Origin: a virus
Virus record (IMG/VR): IMGVR_UViG_3300021964_012561
Coordinates: 1-64,000 of that record
Reading direction: 5' to 3' (one strand)
DNA length: 64,000 bases
Positions 7,342 through 27,687 of this stretch are shown here, piece by piece (within the stretch, counting starts at the first letter, position 1; every line of letters begins with the position of its first letter). The notes beneath the pieces are model-generated. The model searched no databases. It saw nothing but the letters and a program-made list of their open reading frames with translations, and had not been told where the DNA came from. Both the position numbers and the translations under genes were made by a program.

Positions 7342-8294
7342 AATACAAAATTTTAATGATTGGAAAACCTGGTGGCAATTTAGTAAGAACATATGACTGG
7401 CACATTAAAGCATTAAATAATGATAGTCAAAAAAGATATCAGGTAGATTGTATTCATTCACTTGGAAACAAAGTTAACTTAGCTGATTATAACATTTTTT
7501 GGTTTTATGCAAAAGCATTTCAGCCTCAACTATATCATACTATAAAACAGCTAATGCCTCATTCAAAGACAATTTTTGGGCCTAATATTTTACTTGATAA
7601 ACCTGACTTAGGGCCTAGTGATGAATGGGACAATTGGTATATTAATCATTGTAATCCTGACATACATTTGGATCAAGTTGCATTTTATTCTGATCATGTC
7701 AATAAATTTTTAAGAGAAGATGTCAGAAAAACTTCTAGGTGTCTTAATAAATGTATTGAATTAGATGACAACTTATATAAGCCGGATACAAAAAAAATAT
7801 ATGATTGTTTAATTTATTCCAAAAAAAGAAGATATGATGTAAATTTTGAGGATTTTAGATACGAATTATTGCTTTTGTTAGAAAAAAATAACATTAAATT
7901 TTGTGAAATACCTGCAGGAAAATTTGGCAAATACGAAAGAAAAGATTATTTTGATTTACTAAATAAATCAAAAGTTACTGTTAATTTAAGCTTAGACGAA
8001 TGTCCAGGCATTTTAAATTATGAATCAATGTTTTTAAACGTACCTGTCATAGGTTCACCTCACAATGTTCCAATAACTTCTGCTAAGGCACTTCATGTAT
8101 TAAATACAGACGAAATGACATCAAAATACTTAGTTAGAAAAAAATCAGCTGCAGAAAAATACTTTAAAAAAATTAAAGCATTCTTGTCAGGAGAAATAAA
8201 ATTAGAATCAAATCACAGAGAATGGGTGCTGAAAGAAACTAGTTTTAAAAAATATTGTGATCGTCTTGAAAACTTAATTAAAGAGGTAAAATGA
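7338..8294 (+). CDS. GT-B glycosyltransferase (GT4-like)
   Basis: A 318-residue protein with a Rossmann-like N-terminus (MKYKILMIGKPGGN) and a C-terminal half resembling the nucleotide-sugar-binding domain of GT4 enzymes. The best family signal is VTVNLSLDECPGILNYE followed by FLNVPVIGSP at about residues 212-242, including the Glu usually seen near the donor phosphates. No signal peptide or membrane helix. It overlaps the cupin and the next transferase by 4 bases each, so all three are probably translated together. Specificity unknown. Confidence 0.7.
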   Translation: MKYKILMIGKPGGNLVRTYDWHIKALNNDSQKRYQVDCIHSLGNKVNLADYNIFWFYAKAFQPQLYHTIKQLMPHSKTIFGPNILLDKPDLGPSDEWDNWYINHCNPDIHLDQVAFYSDHVNKFLREDVRKTSRCLNKCIELDDNLYKPDTKKIYDCLIYSKKRRYDVNFEDFRYELLLLLEKNNIKFCEIPAGKFGKYERKDYFDLLNKSKVTVNLSLDECPGILNYESMFLNVPVIGSPHNVPITSAKALHVLNTDEMTSKYLVRKKSAAEKYFKKIKAFLSGEIKLESNHREWVLKETSFKKYCDRLENLIKEVK

Positions 8295-9298
8295 TTAATT
8301 TAAATTTTTTAACTTCTAACACAAATATTAACAGAGGATCATACAGAATCTGGGTTCATGACATTAATAATCTATTGATTGAAAATGAAGAGATTAATTC
8401 TAAGATAGTAACTAATTCTAAAAAAATTGATAAAAATTGTGATGTTATTATCTTAGGAAAGTCGTGCTATAAAAACGTGGACTTAATAAAAAAAGAACAC
8501 CCAACAAAAATCATAGGCGCAATTAATATAGATGCTGATTTTAAAAACAAAAACATAGACTTTGTTATAGTAGGTTCTATCGAAGAATATACCAGTATGT
8601 CTTTTTATGAAAATGTTTTTATCGTTGATTTAATTGAAGAAAAATTTATGAAAGTTCCGATAAAAAATCATGTTGATAAAAATAATCTAGTACTTGGTTA
8701 TCATGGGCATCACCCACATCTATTTAAGTTTTTCCCATTTTTAAAATCAGCAATTGAAAACATTAACAAAGAAATAGATTTAACTTTAAAAGTAATAATT
8801 GGTGATAAAAACTTTAATTGGCAGCATGGAAAACCTGAAATTGATAATTTAGAAATTCTTTATTATGATGAAATCAACGTAAGTGAAACAATTAAAACAT
8901 TTGACGTAGGCATTGTTCCTAATGTTTTAGATATGAGAGTTTTTGATAGTTTTAATCAAATTGCAAATTTTAAAAATTTAGAAATAGGAATCAACACAAC
9001 AGATTATTTTTTAAGATTTAAAAACAAAACGAACCCAGGGCGTGCTTATGTTTTTTATCAACATGGAATTCCAGTAATACATGACTTAAGCCCAAGTAGC
9101 TACGCTTTCATGCAAGAAGCAGGTTTATATTCTTGTGCACATGATGCTGAATCTTGGGAAAAAGAAATTAAAAATTTTATAGACTATAAAAATAGAAATA
9201 AACACGCAAAATCTTTCTATGAAATTTTCCATAAAAAATTCAATAAAGAAAATAGAACTAATAATTTTGTAAATGCAATTAAAAGTTTAATAAAATAA
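8291..9298 (+). CDS. Probable GT-B glycosyltransferase
   Basis: A 335-residue soluble protein. The middle and C-terminal parts have a GT-B pattern: LVLGYHGHHPHLF at about 133-145 marks the start of a second Rossmann-like domain, TFDVGIVPNVLD lies near 204-215, and NPGRAYVFYQHGIPVIHDLS near 247-266 resembles the donor-binding loop of GT4-type enzymes. The N-terminal 130 residues are divergent. Its gene overlaps the preceding GT by 4 bases (ATGA). The call rests on fold-like motifs and context rather than a clear catalytic motif. Confidence 0.6.
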   Translation: MINLNFLTSNTNINRGSYRIWVHDINNLLIENEEINSKIVTNSKKIDKNCDVIILGKSCYKNVDLIKKEHPTKIIGAINIDADFKNKNIDFVIVGSIEEYTSMSFYENVFIVDLIEEKFMKVPIKNHVDKNNLVLGYHGHHPHLFKFFPFLKSAIENINKEIDLTLKVIIGDKNFNWQHGKPEIDNLEILYYDEINVSETIKTFDVGIVPNVLDMRVFDSFNQIANFKNLEIGINTTDYFLRFKNKTNPGRAYVFYQHGIPVIHDLSPSSYAFMQEAGLYSCAHDAESWEKEIKNFIDYKNRNKHAKSFYEIFHKKFNKENRTNNFVNAIKSLIK

Positions 9299-9313: not shown

Positions 9314-10078
9314 ATGAACAAAATAGCAGAAAAAGGTTATCTTTATATTGCCTATGGTGAAGCTTTTACTAAAGAAGCATTAATGTCAATAGAATCTTTA
9401 AGAAGATACACTGACTTACCTATTGCAATTTACACAGATCAAAAAGATTTAGCAGAAGAAAAAAAAGATAAATTAAAAATTACTTTAATCGGTCAAATTG
9501 TTGCAAAACACTTAAGGGCAAAAGTAGATTATATGGATCAATCTCCATTCATAAATACGGTATTTATGGATTCTGATACTGTGGTTGTAAGAAATTGCGA
9601 CGACATGTTTGCTCTTTTAGAAAGATTCGATGTTGCAATTGTAAATGATTATGCAAGAAAAAGATTGAAATATTCAAAAATAGTTCCGGAATATGGTGAA
9701 ATTCCTTATGCTTTTTCTGAGGCAAATAGTGGTGTAATTGCTTTTAACAGTTCTACAAGAACAGATACTTTTCTTAAAATGTGGAAAGAGTATTTTTATA
9801 AGTACTATCAGCAAACAAACGGCTGGGATCAAGTAAGTTTTAGAATATCTTTGTGGAAAAGCAATGTAAGAATTCACCACATGCCTTTTGAATACAATGT
9901 CAGAAGCGCCGCAAATAGAGAAAAACAAAATCATTACAAAAGAGAATTTGGCGAAGATCATATGGAGTCAAGGATTATTCACATACATTACGATAATGAA
10001 ATACATAAAGGTATCTATAAAATTGATGACGTTGATGAGCTTGAAAGAATTGTAAAAGAAAAAGCTGTGGTATACTAA
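9314..10078 (+). CDS. GT-A glycosyltransferase, GT8-like
   Basis: A 254-residue GT-A protein. The hallmark is NTVFMDSDTVVVRNCDDMF at about residues 76-94, containing the DSD metal-binding motif of the GT8/nucleotide-diphospho-sugar transferase group, followed by a segment around 133-160 (SGVIAFNSSTRTDTFLKMW) typical of that fold. The N-terminus reads GYLYIAYGEAFTKEA, again as in this group. The C-terminus has HIHYDNEIHKGIY, where a late His may contact the metal. A GAGG sequence lies 5 bases before the ATG. Donor unknown. Confidence 0.8.
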   Translation: MNKIAEKGYLYIAYGEAFTKEALMSIESLRRYTDLPIAIYTDQKDLAEEKKDKLKITLIGQIVAKHLRAKVDYMDQSPFINTVFMDSDTVVVRNCDDMFALLERFDVAIVNDYARKRLKYSKIVPEYGEIPYAFSEANSGVIAFNSSTRTDTFLKMWKEYFYKYYQQTNGWDQVSFRISLWKSNVRIHHMPFEYNVRSAANREKQNHYKREFGEDHMESRIIHIHYDNEIHKGIYKIDDVDELERIVKEKAVVY

Positions 10079-10079
10079 A

Positions 10080-10817
10080 ATGACCAATATTTTACAAGAT
10101 CTTTTTGAAAACAAGAAAGTTGCATTAGTAGGTCCTGCAAAGTATATGACCAACTTGCCGCTAGGAAAAGAAATTGACAGTCATGATACAGTTGTTAGGA
10201 TTAATAGATCTTGGGAGTCTATTAGCAGTCATAACAAGAGCATAGGTAGTAGAACAGATGTATTATATTCCTGCTTGATTGAAAAACCGGCAAATGCAGG
10301 AGAAATAAATGTTGAAAAATATGTTGAAAATAACATTAAGTTAGTTTGCGCACCTCCAGCATCTAGCATGAAAGGATTGTCAAACGAAACAAGATTTCAC
10401 GATTTAATTGACATAGAAAAAATTGAAAAATTAAATCAAAAAATACCTGTCAGATTAGTTGATCATCATTTTCATAATGCCTTGGCATATAAAGTAGATT
10501 GCCGACCTAACACAGGATTTGTAGCCATTTATGACATCTTAAGAATGAATCCAAAATTTTTATCAATTTATGGTTTTAGTTTTTACTTAGATGGTTTTAT
10601 TCCCGGTGTTAAGAAAGGAATAATAAACGAACAAAATAAAACTGAAGCTGAGTTTGCAAATCAATGCTTTAATTCAAAGCGCCACGTCCAAAAAAATATG
10701 TGGCAATTTGCTAAAGAAACGCTTTTAAACAATGAAAAAGTAAATTTAGATTCTCAGTTAAAGATTATTTTAGAGTTGGAAAGATTAGACAAAAGCCTTT
10801 ATGAAAAGAAAAAATGA
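10080..10817 (+). CDS. GT29 sialyltransferase-like glycosyltransferase
   Basis: A 245-residue protein with the hallmarks of GT29 enzymes: VALVGPA at 14-20 and DSHDTVVRIN at 33-42 match the sialyl-L region (nucleotide binding), GSRTDVLY at 56-63 continues it, and RPNTGFVAI at 142-150 with YGFSFYLDG at 164-172 matches the sialyl-S region. GT29 enzymes use CMP-sialic acid or related CMP-ulosonates. The next gene encodes a CMP-acylneuraminate synthetase-like protein and overlaps it by 4 bases, which supports a CMP-sugar donor. There is no membrane anchor, unlike eukaryotic GT29 enzymes. The exact ulosonic acid is unknown. Confidence 0.75.
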   Translation: MTNILQDLFENKKVALVGPAKYMTNLPLGKEIDSHDTVVRINRSWESISSHNKSIGSRTDVLYSCLIEKPANAGEINVEKYVENNIKLVCAPPASSMKGLSNETRFHDLIDIEKIEKLNQKIPVRLVDHHFHNALAYKVDCRPNTGFVAIYDILRMNPKFLSIYGFSFYLDGFIPGVKKGIINEQNKTEAEFANQCFNSKRHVQKNMWQFAKETLLNNEKVNLDSQLKIILELERLDKSLYEKKK

Positions 10818-11464
10818 TTATTTTTATTCCAATCAAAGAAGAATCTCAAAGAGTTCCTAATAAAAACTTTAGAAAGATTAACGGAATAGAACTTTATAAA
10901 AATTTATTATATAAACTTACTAATCATAAAGTTTTTATAGATACTGACAGCAATAAGATTATAGATGCTGTTAAAAATGACAAAAAACTTAAAAATGTTT
11001 GTACTTACAAAAGAAAACAACATTTGCTTGGCCATGAAGTTTCTGTTTGTGACTTAATTGAAAATTTTATTATTGAAAAATCTATGCATAATAAATCAAT
11101 CTGTCAAATACATGTAACATCGCCATTTATAAAAGAAAAAACATTAACAACAGCATTTAATAAGTTTAAATCTGGATATGATTCTATTGTTTCTTGTAAC
11201 ATATATCAAAATAGACTATGGCGTAAAGAAAAATATGGATATTGCCCAGTTAATCATAACCCGATTAAACTAGAACAAACTCAAGACCTGCCTAAATTTT
11301 ATGAAGAAAATTCTTTATTTTACATGTTTCAGGCAGATAAATTTTTAAAAACAAAATCAAGGATCGGAAATAATCCGTATTTTTATGCATGCAATTTTCC
11401 AGAAAATATTGACATAGACACAGAAGACGATTGGAGTATTGCTAAAACTATCGCAGGAGAATAG
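10814..11464 (+). CDS. CMP-N-acylneuraminate / CMP-ulosonate cytidylyltransferase-like
   Basis: A 216-residue nucleotidyltransferase of the NeuA/KdsB type, which activates a 3-deoxy-2-ulosonic acid with CTP. The N-terminal FIPIKEESQRVPNKNFR (4-20) is the CTP-binding loop, with EES in place of the more common GGS or SGS. HVTSPF at 100-105, TQDLPKFYEEN at 156-166 and the C-terminal IDIDTEDDW at 199-207 are family motifs, the last supplying metal-binding acids. It overlaps the GT29-like gene by 4 bases, and the aldolase starts immediately after its stop. Substrate is inferred from family; Neu5Ac, legionaminate, pseudaminate and Kdo-like acids are all possible. Confidence 0.85.
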   Translation: MIIFIPIKEESQRVPNKNFRKINGIELYKNLLYKLTNHKVFIDTDSNKIIDAVKNDKKLKNVCTYKRKQHLLGHEVSVCDLIENFIIEKSMHNKSICQIHVTSPFIKEKTLTTAFNKFKSGYDSIVSCNIYQNRLWRKEKYGYCPVNHNPIKLEQTQDLPKFYEENSLFYMFQADKFLKTKSRIGNNPYFYACNFPENIDIDTEDDWSIAKTIAGE

Positions 11465-12154
11465 ATGAAATTAATGTGGCAGCAAATCCCATCAACAGTC
11501 ATATCAGAAATTTTATGCATTAACGACACAGATGGCGTAGTAATAGATACAGAGCATGGCTGTTTTAACACGGAGACACTTTATTCTTGCATACAAGTTG
11601 TTACATTACACAAAAAAGAATGTTTCATCAGATTAACAGAAGTCAACAAGACATTAATTAGAGCCTGTTTGGATGCAGGCTGTACTGGTATTATTTTTTC
11701 AACTGTTGAAAATGTTGAAGACGCTAAAAAAATACATGAATGGTGTAAATTTCCATCCATTGGCGGTAAAAGAGGTTTAGGGTTAGTTCGAGAAAACAAG
11801 TGGGGTCTTGATAAAAATTTAATTAGTAATCCTCCAAAATTAATTGCTCAAATTGAAACAATAGAAGGCGTCGAAAACATCAAAGAAATTTCTTCTTTCC
11901 CTTTTGATTTTTACATGATAGGCCCTTATGATCTATCAGCAAGTGCTGGTGATCCTGGAAATTTTGAAAATGAAACTTTCAAGGATTCAATTAAAAAAGT
12001 GAGGAAAATAATACCAGACAATAAAATGGCAGTTCACATACCAAAAAACATTAAAAAAGAAATGAAAAATTATAAAAATTATGGTATGATTGCTTTAGGA
12101 ATGGATACAACTTTTTTAATTGAAAAGTGCAAGGAAATTGAAAAATATGCTTAA
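11465..12154 (+). CDS. HpcH/HpaI-family pyruvate aldolase
   Basis: A 229-residue class II aldolase of the HpcH/HpaI (RhmA-like) family, which reversibly adds pyruvate to an aldehyde to give a 2-keto-3-deoxy acid. Visible motifs are VVIDTEHG at 25-32 (catalytic His), TGIIFSTVEN at 74-83, GGKRGLG at 100-106, IAQIETIEGV at 127-136 (metal Glu131) and MIGPYDLSAS at 151-160 (metal Asp156). The family is usually about 250 residues, so this one is slightly short. Placed between a CMP-ulosonate synthetase and a SIS-HAD protein, it may make the ulosonic acid in place of a NeuB/KdsA synthase (inference). It begins right after the previous stop. Confidence 0.85.
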   Translation: MKLMWQQIPSTVISEILCINDTDGVVIDTEHGCFNTETLYSCIQVVTLHKKECFIRLTEVNKTLIRACLDAGCTGIIFSTVENVEDAKKIHEWCKFPSIGGKRGLGLVRENKWGLDKNLISNPPKLIAQIETIEGVENIKEISSFPFDFYMIGPYDLSASAGDPGNFENETFKDSIKKVRKIIPDNKMAVHIPKNIKKEMKNYKNYGMIALGMDTTFLIEKCKEIEKYA

Positions 12155-13124
12155 TTTTGAAAATTTAGATGAAAAATTTGTTAAGGTTGTCAACTCTAAA
12201 GAATGGAAAGAGTTGCAACAAAAATTCAACAAATGTAATGACATTTATGTCCTAGGACATGGAGGTAACTTAGCTATAGCAGACCATGCTGCTGTCGACA
12301 TAACACGCCTGTCAAATGGTACAAAAAATGCCATATGTCCCGGAAGTGCTATTGTCGCTACTTCTTTGATTAATGACACAAGCTTTGATCAATGGATGGT
12401 CAATTGGTTACGTCAAAGAACTTCCACTAGAACAAAAGATCAAATGAAAAAATCGCTAGTTTTAGGAGTTTCATCATCAGGAAATTCTACTGACATTATT
12501 AAAGCTCTTCAATGGGCAAATGACAATAATATGGAAATAGCTATGATTTCATCAAAAGACATTAAAGTAAAAGTTAAAGATTTGACAAAGGTCTTACTAG
12601 GAGCAGAGTATTATCACACAGCTGAGGTACTAACTCTTTTACTTACTTATGAACTAACGCATGGTTCTGGTAATGTTTGCCCGCCTATAGGGAAAAACGA
12701 CCCTGAAGATTTAAAAAAATTAAACTGGAAAGGCAGTAAGATAAGAAAGCATAGCTACCCTGATGAACAGATTAATCTTGGAATTGATTTTGATGGCGTA
12801 ATTCATAAGTGCTCAAAAGGTTATTATGATGGTACTATCTATGATGATCCAGTAGAGGGAGCTTACGAAGCTTTGTCTAAGCTGTCAAAAAAATATACTT
12901 TGATTGTTTATACTTGCAAGGCGAAACCTGACAGAGGCCTAGTGAATGGAAAAACCGGAACAGAGCTAGTTTGGGAGTGGCTAGAAAAACATGACATGTC
13001 AAAGTTTGTTTCAAAAGTAACAGCAGAAAAACCTAGAGCAATTGCTTACATTGATGATAAAAACATAAGTTTTTCTGATTGGGACCAAACATTGTTGACT
13101 TTAACTAAAAAAGGTCAACTATAA
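12147..13124 (+). CDS. SIS (GmhA-like) - HAD phosphatase fusion protein
   Basis: A 325-residue fusion. Residues 1-185 are a SIS domain like phosphoheptose isomerase GmhA: VLGHGGNLAIADHAA near 35-49, INDTSFDQW near 75-83, and the phosphosugar-binding GVSSSGNSTDII at 107-118. Residues 200-325 are a compact HAD domain with motif I GIDFDGVIHK (202-211; Asp204 and Asp206), motif II Thr in YTCK, and YIDDKNISF near 301-309 as motif IV. This combines isomerisation of a sugar phosphate with phosphate removal. I chose the ATG at 12147, which overlaps the aldolase by 8 bases and has AAGGAA upstream, over a TTG at 12120. Heptose or Kdo-type chemistry are both possible. Confidence 0.8.
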   Translation: MLNFENLDEKFVKVVNSKEWKELQQKFNKCNDIYVLGHGGNLAIADHAAVDITRLSNGTKNAICPGSAIVATSLINDTSFDQWMVNWLRQRTSTRTKDQMKKSLVLGVSSSGNSTDIIKALQWANDNNMEIAMISSKDIKVKVKDLTKVLLGAEYYHTAEVLTLLLTYELTHGSGNVCPPIGKNDPEDLKKLNWKGSKIRKHSYPDEQINLGIDFDGVIHKCSKGYYDGTIYDDPVEGAYEALSKLSKKYTLIVYTCKAKPDRGLVNGKTGTELVWEWLEKHDMSKFVSKVTAEKPRAIAYIDDKNISFSDWDQTLLTLTKKGQL

Positions 13125-27450: not shown

Positions 27451-27687
27451 TTGGCGGAAAAGAAAGATAAATACCCAGACAATGTTAGTGGTAAATTTTA
27501 CGTAGATAAGGAATGTATTTTTTGCAATGTATGTGCGAATGCAGCTCCTAACAACTTTAAAATTAGTGATGATGGCACCCATGATGTTGTCTATAAGCAA
27601 CCTCAAAATGAAGAAGAAGAAGACGAATGCTACGAAGCTTTAGAACTATGTCCTGTCTATGCCATAGGTGACGACGGAGAAGAATAA
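27451..27687 (+). CDS. Single-cluster 4Fe-4S ferredoxin
   Basis: A 78-residue acidic ferredoxin starting at TTG 27451, right after the QueF-like stop, with GAGGAA upstream. CIFCNVC (Cys22, Cys25, Cys28) and the distant Cys67 in ELCPVYAIGDDGE form a one-cluster 4Fe-4S binding site; NEEEEDECYEALE is the acidic helix usual in this group. It would carry electrons to a phage or host oxidoreductase. The partner cannot be read from the sequence: a radical-SAM enzyme of 7-deazaguanine synthesis elsewhere in the genome is one option, though QueF itself uses NADPH. A gap with a promoter candidate follows. Confidence 0.9.
   Translation: MAEKKDKYPDNVSGKFYVDKECIFCNVCANAAPNNFKISDDGTHDVVYKQPQNEEEEDECYEALELCPVYAIGDDGEE

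Follow-up and report, generated by a model that had tools for sequence, protein, structure and literature searches.

Routes to CMP-activated sugar acids

Synthesis and transfer of Kdo proceed through KdsD, KdsA, KdsC, KdsB and a Kdo transferase, and the nonulosonic (sialic, pseudaminic and legionaminic) acid pathways employ NeuB/PseI/LegI and NeuA/PseF. To our knowledge, every textbook route to a CMP-sugar acid, for Kdo and for nonulosonic acids alike, uses a PEP-dependent synthase for the condensation. Phages are known to encode enzymes that remodel an ulosonic acid (PMC12053666).

The window analysed here is a stretch of 64,000 nucleotides from a 114.6-kb viral record (IMG/VR IMGVR_UViG_3300021964_012561) of an uncultured phage. 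Embedded in a 22-kb carbohydrate island, four adjoining and fully open genes on the + strand (10080-13124) encode a GT29-like glycosyltransferase, a CMP-sugar synthetase, an HpcH/HpaI aldolase and a fusion of SIS and HAD domains. As in the Kdo pathway, a SIS domain, a predicted C-C bond-forming enzyme, a HAD phosphatase, a CMP synthetase and a CMP-sugar transferase are represented. Unlike that pathway, the module has a pyruvate-type aldolase and no PEP-dependent KdsA, its SIS domain is closest to GmhA and is fused to HAD, its synthetase falls far under the kdsB cut-off, and GT29 replaces the known Kdo transferase families. With the nonulosonic acid pathways it shares a synthetase of the NeuA/PseF superfamily and a member of GT29, the sialyltransferase family; it differs from them in lacking a NeuB-type synthase and an equivalog-level match to PseF or NeuA.

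On balance, and by a slight preference, we read the four genes from their sequences as a phage-borne pathway that would build a 2-keto sugar acid of the ulosonic type, activate it with CMP and attach it to a glycan. The module is real and conserved and probably represents a new variant of CMP-ulosonate biosynthesis, and no description of the gene set was found in open-access full texts. A wider proposal, to which we give somewhat less than an even chance, is a CMP-ulosonate route of an undescribed kind, in which the PEP-dependent synthase gives way to an HpcH/HpaI aldolase that acts reversibly and depends on pyruvate or hydroxypyruvate. Such a route would be common to marine phages and several bacterial phyla, have interchangeable front ends (SIS-HAD or D-2-hydroxyacid dehydrogenase), and deliver an uncharacterised CMP-sugar acid to phage GT29-type transferases. 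If true, it would constitute a second chemical logic beside PEP-dependent condensation, and a sugar not yet characterised might come to light on the surface of phages or their hosts. A bacterial operon that has so far lacked an explanation (CMP synthetase, aldolase, hydroxyacid dehydrogenase and others) would then have a function, as would the SIS-HAD fusion, which accompanies almost all the phage CMP-sugar synthetases that were examined together with it.

The first-pass annotation had proposed that a pyruvate aldolase takes the place of the PEP-dependent synthase, and had named a NeuB or KdsA homologue elsewhere in the genome as evidence to the contrary. Family searches across the 114.6-kb record, a linear sequence that may be only part of a genome, gave no match to NeuB and no DAHP_synth_1 match indicative of KdsA; for this record we rejected the idea that the module serves a NeuB- or KdsA-based route of the known kind, because neither gene was found. 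The two synthases were likewise absent from 31 of 33 related records. The other two (L145 and L155) carry KdsA, NeuB and NeuA in addition to the module.

Predicted enzymes of the module

The four genes are translationally coupled; coupling had been noticed at first pass. The start of the synthetase gene overlaps the end of the GT29-like gene as ATGA, the aldolase gene begins at the base directly after the end of the synthetase gene with an AGGAGA-type ribosome site, and the ATG of the SIS-HAD gene at 12147 overlaps the aldolase stop. This ATG is taken as the start; a TTG at 12120 is only a mechanical extension of the same frame. The usual upstream neighbours in related phages are a 254-aa glycosyltransferase of the Nucleotid_trans type (9314..10078, + strand; Pfam PF03407) and a 335-aa protein (8291..9298, + strand) that gave no match in Pfam and PHROG searches, and the order including both is conserved in L088, L090-L098, L101-L104 and L157.

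The GT29-like protein (10080..10817, + strand; 245 aa) matches Pfam Glyco_transf_29 (E=9e-8; 32.2 bits against a cut-off of 23). It contains sialylmotifs L (GPAKYM...GKEIDSHDTVVRIN) and S (RPNTGFVAIYDIL...SIYGFSFYLDG), and H202 towards the C-terminus is invariant in an alignment of 12 phage homologues. The protein has a GT29 fold as judged from its AlphaFold model (pLDDT 94.8), for which the best 28 PDB matches in Foldseek are all GT29 sialyltransferases, human ST8SiaIII and ST6GalNAc2 among them. This fold and the adjoining CMP synthetase suggest that the donor is a CMP-sugar. The plant GT29 RCKT1/MGP2 is likely a CMP-Kdo transferase, and the family is thus not limited to sialic acid (PMC12168206). 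The plant protein resembles the phage one in being a GT29 whose likely CMP-linked donor carries an ulosonic acid other than sialic acid, namely Kdo (PMC12168206), and differs in that it works in the Golgi, on pectin.

The CMP-sugar (acylneuraminate-type) cytidylyltransferase (10814..11464, + strand; 216 aa) is the sole match to Pfam CTP_transf_3 in the 114.6-kb record (E=2e-14; 54.4 bits, cut-off 22.6), and its PDB relatives are CMP-Neu5Ac synthetases. The P-loop SQRVPNKN and the metal-site DID are intact, with S11, R13, K17, N18, D200 and D202 invariant in the alignment. The NCBIfam models for PseF (68.1 bits, cut-off 205.7) and kdsB (20.5, cut-off 155.2) are not reached, and the equivalog scores gave no substrate, synthetase and aldolase both lying under the curated cut-off of every known-substrate family.

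The third gene (11465..12154, + strand; 229 aa) encodes a predicted metal-dependent pyruvate aldolase of HpcH/HpaI class II. It matches Pfam HpcH_HpaI PF03328 (E=2e-18; 67.1 bits, cut-off 25) and, under the equivalog cut-off, NCBIfam HpaI (E=4e-25). Aligned to its PDB relatives YfaU and HpaI, the protein retains D28, E30, H31, R56, Q129, E131 and D156, among them the Arg, the His/Asp dyad and the metal-binding Glu and Asp; the enzyme proposed in place of a PEP-dependent synthase has its full set of catalytic residues. The catalytic positions are kept in all 35 distinct phage aldolases, one of which has an ambiguous base near the site. These proteins share the Pfam family and catalytic residues of HpaI, YfaU (RhmA) and GarL, from which they are set apart by linkage to a CMP synthetase and glycan genes rather than to catabolism, by GPYDLS in place of the GPADLS motif of HpaI/YfaU, and by forming one separate clade (support 100/100; tree of 58 sequences). 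In the same tree, most of the bacterial aldolases linked to CMP synthetases, which also have GPYDLS, group together (97/91). A single-protein pattern search found no aldolase in viral contigs, and those reported here come from an alignment-based search. Among INPHARED phages, the aldolase and the HAD half were weakly matched, and no homologue of the GT29 protein or the CMP synthetase was found. HpcH_HpaI matches beside distant CMP synthetases (L117, L118, L132) were set aside as a different subfamily that lacks the EHG/R pattern.

The SIS-HAD protein (12147..13124, + strand) joins a SIS domain (about residues 1-175) to a HAD domain (about 205-325), as the first reading had it. In the HAD half (PHROG 1238, E=1e-13), the motifs DFD, T256, K295 and DD are intact; D214, D216, K295, D303 and D304 are invariant in 19 aligned sequences, and T256 is present in at least 90% of them. 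The SIS domain is weak by Pfam and matches PHROG 14703, NCBIfam gmhA (E=3e-8) and, by phmmer against the PDB, GmhA 5i01. In Foldseek, the model of the fusion (pLDDT 81) finds the same structure (E=2e-7; TM 0.74 by target), with the SIS domain of KdsD, 2xhz, ranking lower (E=1e-5). The SIS isomerase of the Kdo pathway had been the earlier comparison; phosphoheptose isomerase GmhA is closer than KdsD.

The modelled domain has a GmhA-type SIS fold, and the best sequence and fold match being GmhA would suit a heptose branch of the GmhA/GmhB type, unconnected with the CMP-sugar and supplying another glycosyltransferase. We regard such a branch as very improbable. The gmhA score is 33.7 against a cut-off of 209, and catalytic equivalence is doubtful: Asp51 retains the acidic residue of the GmhA catalytic pair, and the position taken to be that of the catalytic His appears replaced. 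In addition, a CMP synthetase is present in 32 of 33 records that have SIS-HAD and lack the aldolase.

The first-pass annotation had recognised functional types for sugar-acid synthesis, CMP activation and transfer, and the family matches and folds agree. In the pathway we favour, the SIS domain would turn a phosphorylated ketose into a phosphorylated aldose, and the HAD domain would take off the phosphate, either ahead of the condensation or after it. The aldolase would join the aldose to an enolate, that of pyruvate or possibly that of hydroxypyruvate, and the resulting 4-hydroxy-2-keto acid would cyclise. The synthetase would activate the anomeric hydroxyl of the cyclised acid, the pyrophosphate set free helping to draw the reversible aldol step forward, and the GT29-type enzyme would transfer the sugar onto a glycan built by the surrounding island. 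The direction of the aldolase, the identity of the sugar, the order of steps and the acceptor are as we infer them. The product may be a 3-deoxy-ulosonate; a hydroxypyruvate-derived ulosonate or another acid is possible, and the sequence does not tell them apart.

Co-segregation in phages

Dozens of other phages have the four-gene set as well. Chance does not account for it: many further viral contigs contain it, and purifying selection on it is strong (dN about 0.1-0.4 against dS of 1.5 to saturated). Among the 44 viral contigs that bear the aldolase, the synthetase is the gene directly upstream of it in 16, and SIS-HAD is the gene directly downstream in 24. From 33 de-duplicated viral CMP synthetases collected without reference to the aldolase, an aldolase was found near 17 of the 18 in the module's subfamily and near none of the 15 others (p=1.5e-8). 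The gene set is more than a chance neighbourhood.

These counts bear on an explanation in which the synthetase activates a host sugar acid (Kdo or a nonulosonate), the aldolase cleaves or has an unrelated substrate, and the genes adjoin only as parts of one glycan island. Most HpcH/HpaI aldolases serve catabolism, with cleavage as the preferred direction, which speaks for it and against the pathway we prefer, Kdo is generally held by Gram-negative hosts, and the related islands are heavily shuffled. Yet the aldolase segregates strictly with one synthetase subfamily, the adjacency is repeated across the shuffled islands, and the same pairing is seen in distant bacteria; we judge the explanation quite unlikely. 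Nine contigs in which a different CMP synthetase (23-26% identity) accompanies aldolase and SIS-HAD also count against the preferred pathway. So do the SIS-HAD loci that have no aldolase, the weak resemblance of the SIS domain to GmhA with its apparently replaced His, the scores of synthetase and aldolase under every known-substrate cut-off, and the possibly fragmentary state of the record.

The SIS-HAD fusion is less tightly bound to the aldolase. Half of the SIS-HAD phage loci are without it, which implies that SIS-HAD and CMP synthetase can work together with another supply. When presence of the aldolase is mapped on the tree of SIS-HAD proteins, no fewer than 9 changes are needed, compared with 21 for shuffled labels, so the link was lost or gained repeatedly. 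We rejected the notion of a SIS-HAD fusion dedicated to the aldolase route, as its link is to CMP-sugar synthetases at large.

Bacterial loci and the aldolase substrate

The locus had been presented as a previously unreported phage route. That no account was found in open-access full texts is in keeping with this; the logic is not phage-only, however, because the same pairing of synthetase and aldolase is present at surface-glycan loci of bacteria. A plasmid operon of Acuticoccus comprises aldolase, CMP synthetase, hydroxyacid dehydrogenase and HAD, and the same synthetase and aldolase types occur with hydroxyacid dehydrogenase and HAD in Bacteroidota, Marinimicrobia and Bdellovibrionota. Like the phage module, these loci combine the synthetase subfamily, the aldolase type and a HAD protein in one operon; unlike it, they have a D-2-hydroxyacid dehydrogenase, an NAD epimerase, a PGL/NagB-like (lactonase/isomerase) protein or a cyclase instead of SIS. 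GT29 was not seen in the bacterial loci, and no published product for them was found in open-access full texts. The bacteria may follow the same logic from a different front end, made up of D-2-hydroxyacid dehydrogenase, epimerase, a lactonase- or cyclase-type enzyme and HAD.

One alternative, unlikely in our estimate yet the most credible of those considered, is that SIS-HAD and CMP synthetase form a core that prepares and activates the sugar, the aldolase being a variant step on hydroxypyruvate (formed from 3-phosphoglycerate by hydroxyacid dehydrogenase and phosphatase) rather than pyruvate. The product would then be a 3-hydroxy and not a 3-deoxy ulosonic acid. Some HpcH/HpaI aldolases do use hydroxypyruvate, and the link of SIS-HAD to CMP synthetases holds whether or not the aldolase is there. 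A search of the 114.6-kb record gave no hydroxyacid dehydrogenase, so hydroxypyruvate would have to be supplied by the host, and where present the dehydrogenase might just as well have the sugar acid as its substrate. Its distribution favours the alternative: the D-2-hydroxyacid dehydrogenase lies beside the aldolase or is fused to GT29 in 6 of 11 phages without a close SIS and in 0 of 21 others (p=0.0005), and it is present in 72 of 80 bacterial loci of the module's synthetase subfamily. In some of the bacterial loci, an MptE-like transferase is encoded near by.

Organization of the module

The four genes at 10080-13124 (+ strand) are closely coupled. The GT29-like gene (10080-10817) meets the CMP synthetase gene (10814-11464) in an ATGA overlap, the HpcH/HpaI aldolase gene (11465-12154) starts one base past the synthetase stop with an AGGAGA-type site in front, and the SIS-HAD gene (12147-13124) starts with the ATG at 12147, within the aldolase stop region. 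Family matches agree with all four assignments, and what the first-pass annotation observed is borne out on firmer ground than the sequence alone could provide. In all four genes, dN is far below dS.

The aldolase aligns over its full length with YfaU and HpaI, and its catalytic positions (Asp28, Glu30, His31, Arg56, Gln129, Glu131, and Asp156) are all present, as they are in every homologue compared. The phage aldolases form a single clade (support 100/100). The CMP synthetase is closest to PseF, but its 68 bits fall below the 205.7-bit equivalog cut-off, so that no particular sugar can be assigned. The 28 best PDB matches of the GT29 model (pLDDT 94.8) are all GT29 sialyltransferases. When 12 phage homologues are aligned, blocks resembling the sialylmotifs prove to be conserved and one histidine is invariant. 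The SIS-HAD protein, a GmhA-like SIS domain joined to a HAD phosphatase-type domain (model pLDDT 81), has GmhA as top match (E=2e-7). Asp51 occupies the acidic catalytic position of GmhA, the catalytic histidine position may be unconserved (judged against a provisional GmhA reference row), and the HAD motifs are intact. PHROG 1238, named “phosphoheptose isomerase”, matches the HAD half (residues 206-322), and its label is therefore probably inherited from SIS-HAD fusions.

Aldolase and CMP synthetase in viruses and bacteria

Viral contigs were scanned with the CMP synthetase alone, and thus chosen independently of the aldolase, and clustered at 90% identity. An aldolase lies within about 8 kb of 17 of the 18 synthetases of the subfamily (43% identity or more) versus none of the 15 synthetases that are more distant (Fisher p=1.5e-8); in the sole exception (L111-L113), a D-2-hydroxyacid dehydrogenase adjoins the synthetase. 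Among the aldolase-bearing contigs from all scans (n=44), the synthetase is directly upstream of the aldolase in 16 and SIS-HAD directly downstream in 24, in islands with an otherwise heavily shuffled gene order. Family searches of the full IMG/VR record (114,636 bases, possibly a fragment, with the window as its bases 1-64000) returned neither NeuB nor a DAHP/KdsA-type synthase. Either synthase occurs in only 2 of 33 related module-bearing records, which may also be fragments; both are L145/L155-type phages, in which KdsA, NeuB, and NeuA-like genes are additional to the aldolase module. From these sequence comparisons, it is well supported that the CMP-sugar-acid module, which is conserved and has an aldolase instead of a PEP-dependent synthase, constitutes a functional unit.

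The synthetase subfamily is also found in bacteria. Among its best 80 bacterial loci, a D-2-hydroxyacid dehydrogenase lies within 6.5 kb in 72, an aldolase is present in 12, and MptE-like genes, which presumably include Maf-type transferases, are nearby in 39. Operons of Bacteroidota, Marinimicrobia, and Bdellovibrionota add a NAD epimerase, a PGL/NagB-like protein or cyclase, and a HAD, and an Acuticoccus plasmid carries aldolase, synthetase, dehydrogenase, and HAD consecutively. The interpretation in the first-pass annotation is partly right: a module in which an aldolase replaces the synthase is conserved, but it is not phage-only, since bacteria share synthetase and aldolase. The module is probably a new variant of CMP-ulosonate biosynthesis, bacteria included; which sugar it yields and in which direction the aldolase works are predictions.

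Several variants were seen among the loci compared. In an Opitutales MAG (L008, 7240-9364), two CMP synthetase genes lie in tandem after an aldolase gene, and their products share 39% and 31% identity with the phage synthetase. Near distant phage CMP synthetases (L117, 5731-6498; L118, 6351-7091; L132, 5768-6538) there is a second HpcH-like family, divergent and marked by an SFEDEG motif, and in several phages a HAD-nucleotidyltransferase domain fusion lies between CMP synthetase and aldolase (L142, 5498-6871). L145 (4310-14889) and L155 combine KdsA, NeuB, a NeuA-like synthetase, and a hydroxyacid dehydrogenase with aldolase, CMP synthetase, and SIS-HAD, and apparently encode several CMP-ulosonate routes within one virus.

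SIS-HAD, dehydrogenase, and the predicted pathway

An alignment scan of viral contigs for SIS-HAD, of which 80 were kept, placed an aldolase nearby in 41. An HpcH/HpaI gene was found in 0 of 33 SIS-HAD records lacking a nearby aldolase, and a CMP synthetase in 32 of them. Specificity of SIS-HAD for the aldolase was accordingly rejected, and the fusion is tied to phage CMP-sugar synthesis generally. In L237 (6001-9123), SIS-HAD is followed by CMP synthetase, a fumarylacetoacetate-hydrolase-family gene, and an epimerase, with no aldolase; the hydrolase-family gene may be another keto-acid enzyme beside the SIS-HAD/CMP synthetase pair. A D-2-hydroxyacid dehydrogenase adjoins the aldolase or is fused to GT29 in 6 of 11 cases without a close SIS versus 0 of 21 (p=0.0005). 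One such fusion with a GT29-like domain is a 532-aa phage protein (L101, 5507-7105) adjoining CMP synthetase and aldolase.

The most economical reading is that the substrate would be isomerised, dephosphorylated, condensed with a three-carbon keto acid, activated with CTP, and transferred. Because SIS can be replaced by the dehydrogenase, the donor may be either pyruvate, which would give a 3-deoxy product, or hydroxypyruvate, which would give a 3-hydroxy one. The aldol condensation that HpcH/HpaI-type aldolases catalyse is reversible, and CTP activation with release of pyrophosphate would pull this step. GT29 members are known in bacteria (PMC5811610), and the family is not confined to sialic acid, as the plant GT29 RCKT1/MGP2 probably transfers Kdo from CMP-Kdo (PMC12168206). 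Phage-encoded change to an ulosonic acid is exemplified by prophage EpaA/EpaB, which epimerise pseudaminic acid (PMC12053666). Unlike the module, none of these systems is aldolase-based, and no description of an aldolase route of this kind was found in the open-access literature.

The carbohydrate island and its phage

The module lies in a 22-kb island (4335-26171) in which carbohydrate genes follow one another on the + strand, downstream of a 1418-residue open frame, and makes up four of these genes. By family or by eye, the island also holds glycosyltransferases, cupins, an FdtA-like isomerase, three DegT aminotransferases, formyltransferase-like, WbqC-like, polysaccharide-deacetylase-like, and sulfotransferase-like genes, a Gfo/Idh oxidoreductase, a C-methyltransferase, and a 2OG oxygenase. 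This gene content points to a glycan whose amino-deoxy sugars carry formyl or acyl groups, alongside the CMP-sugar. A 335-aa protein with no hit in either Pfam or PHROG (8291-9298), whose position 5´ of the module is kept in many related phages, is a candidate additional pathway member. The phage is distant from named phages, as a structural protein has no INPHARED match and its primase is only 29% identical to its nearest relatives, from Flavobacterium myophages. Beyond the island, a small ferredoxin-like open frame of 78 aa, recognized by eye (27451-27687), follows an exonuclease-like gene (PHROG 1218/69).
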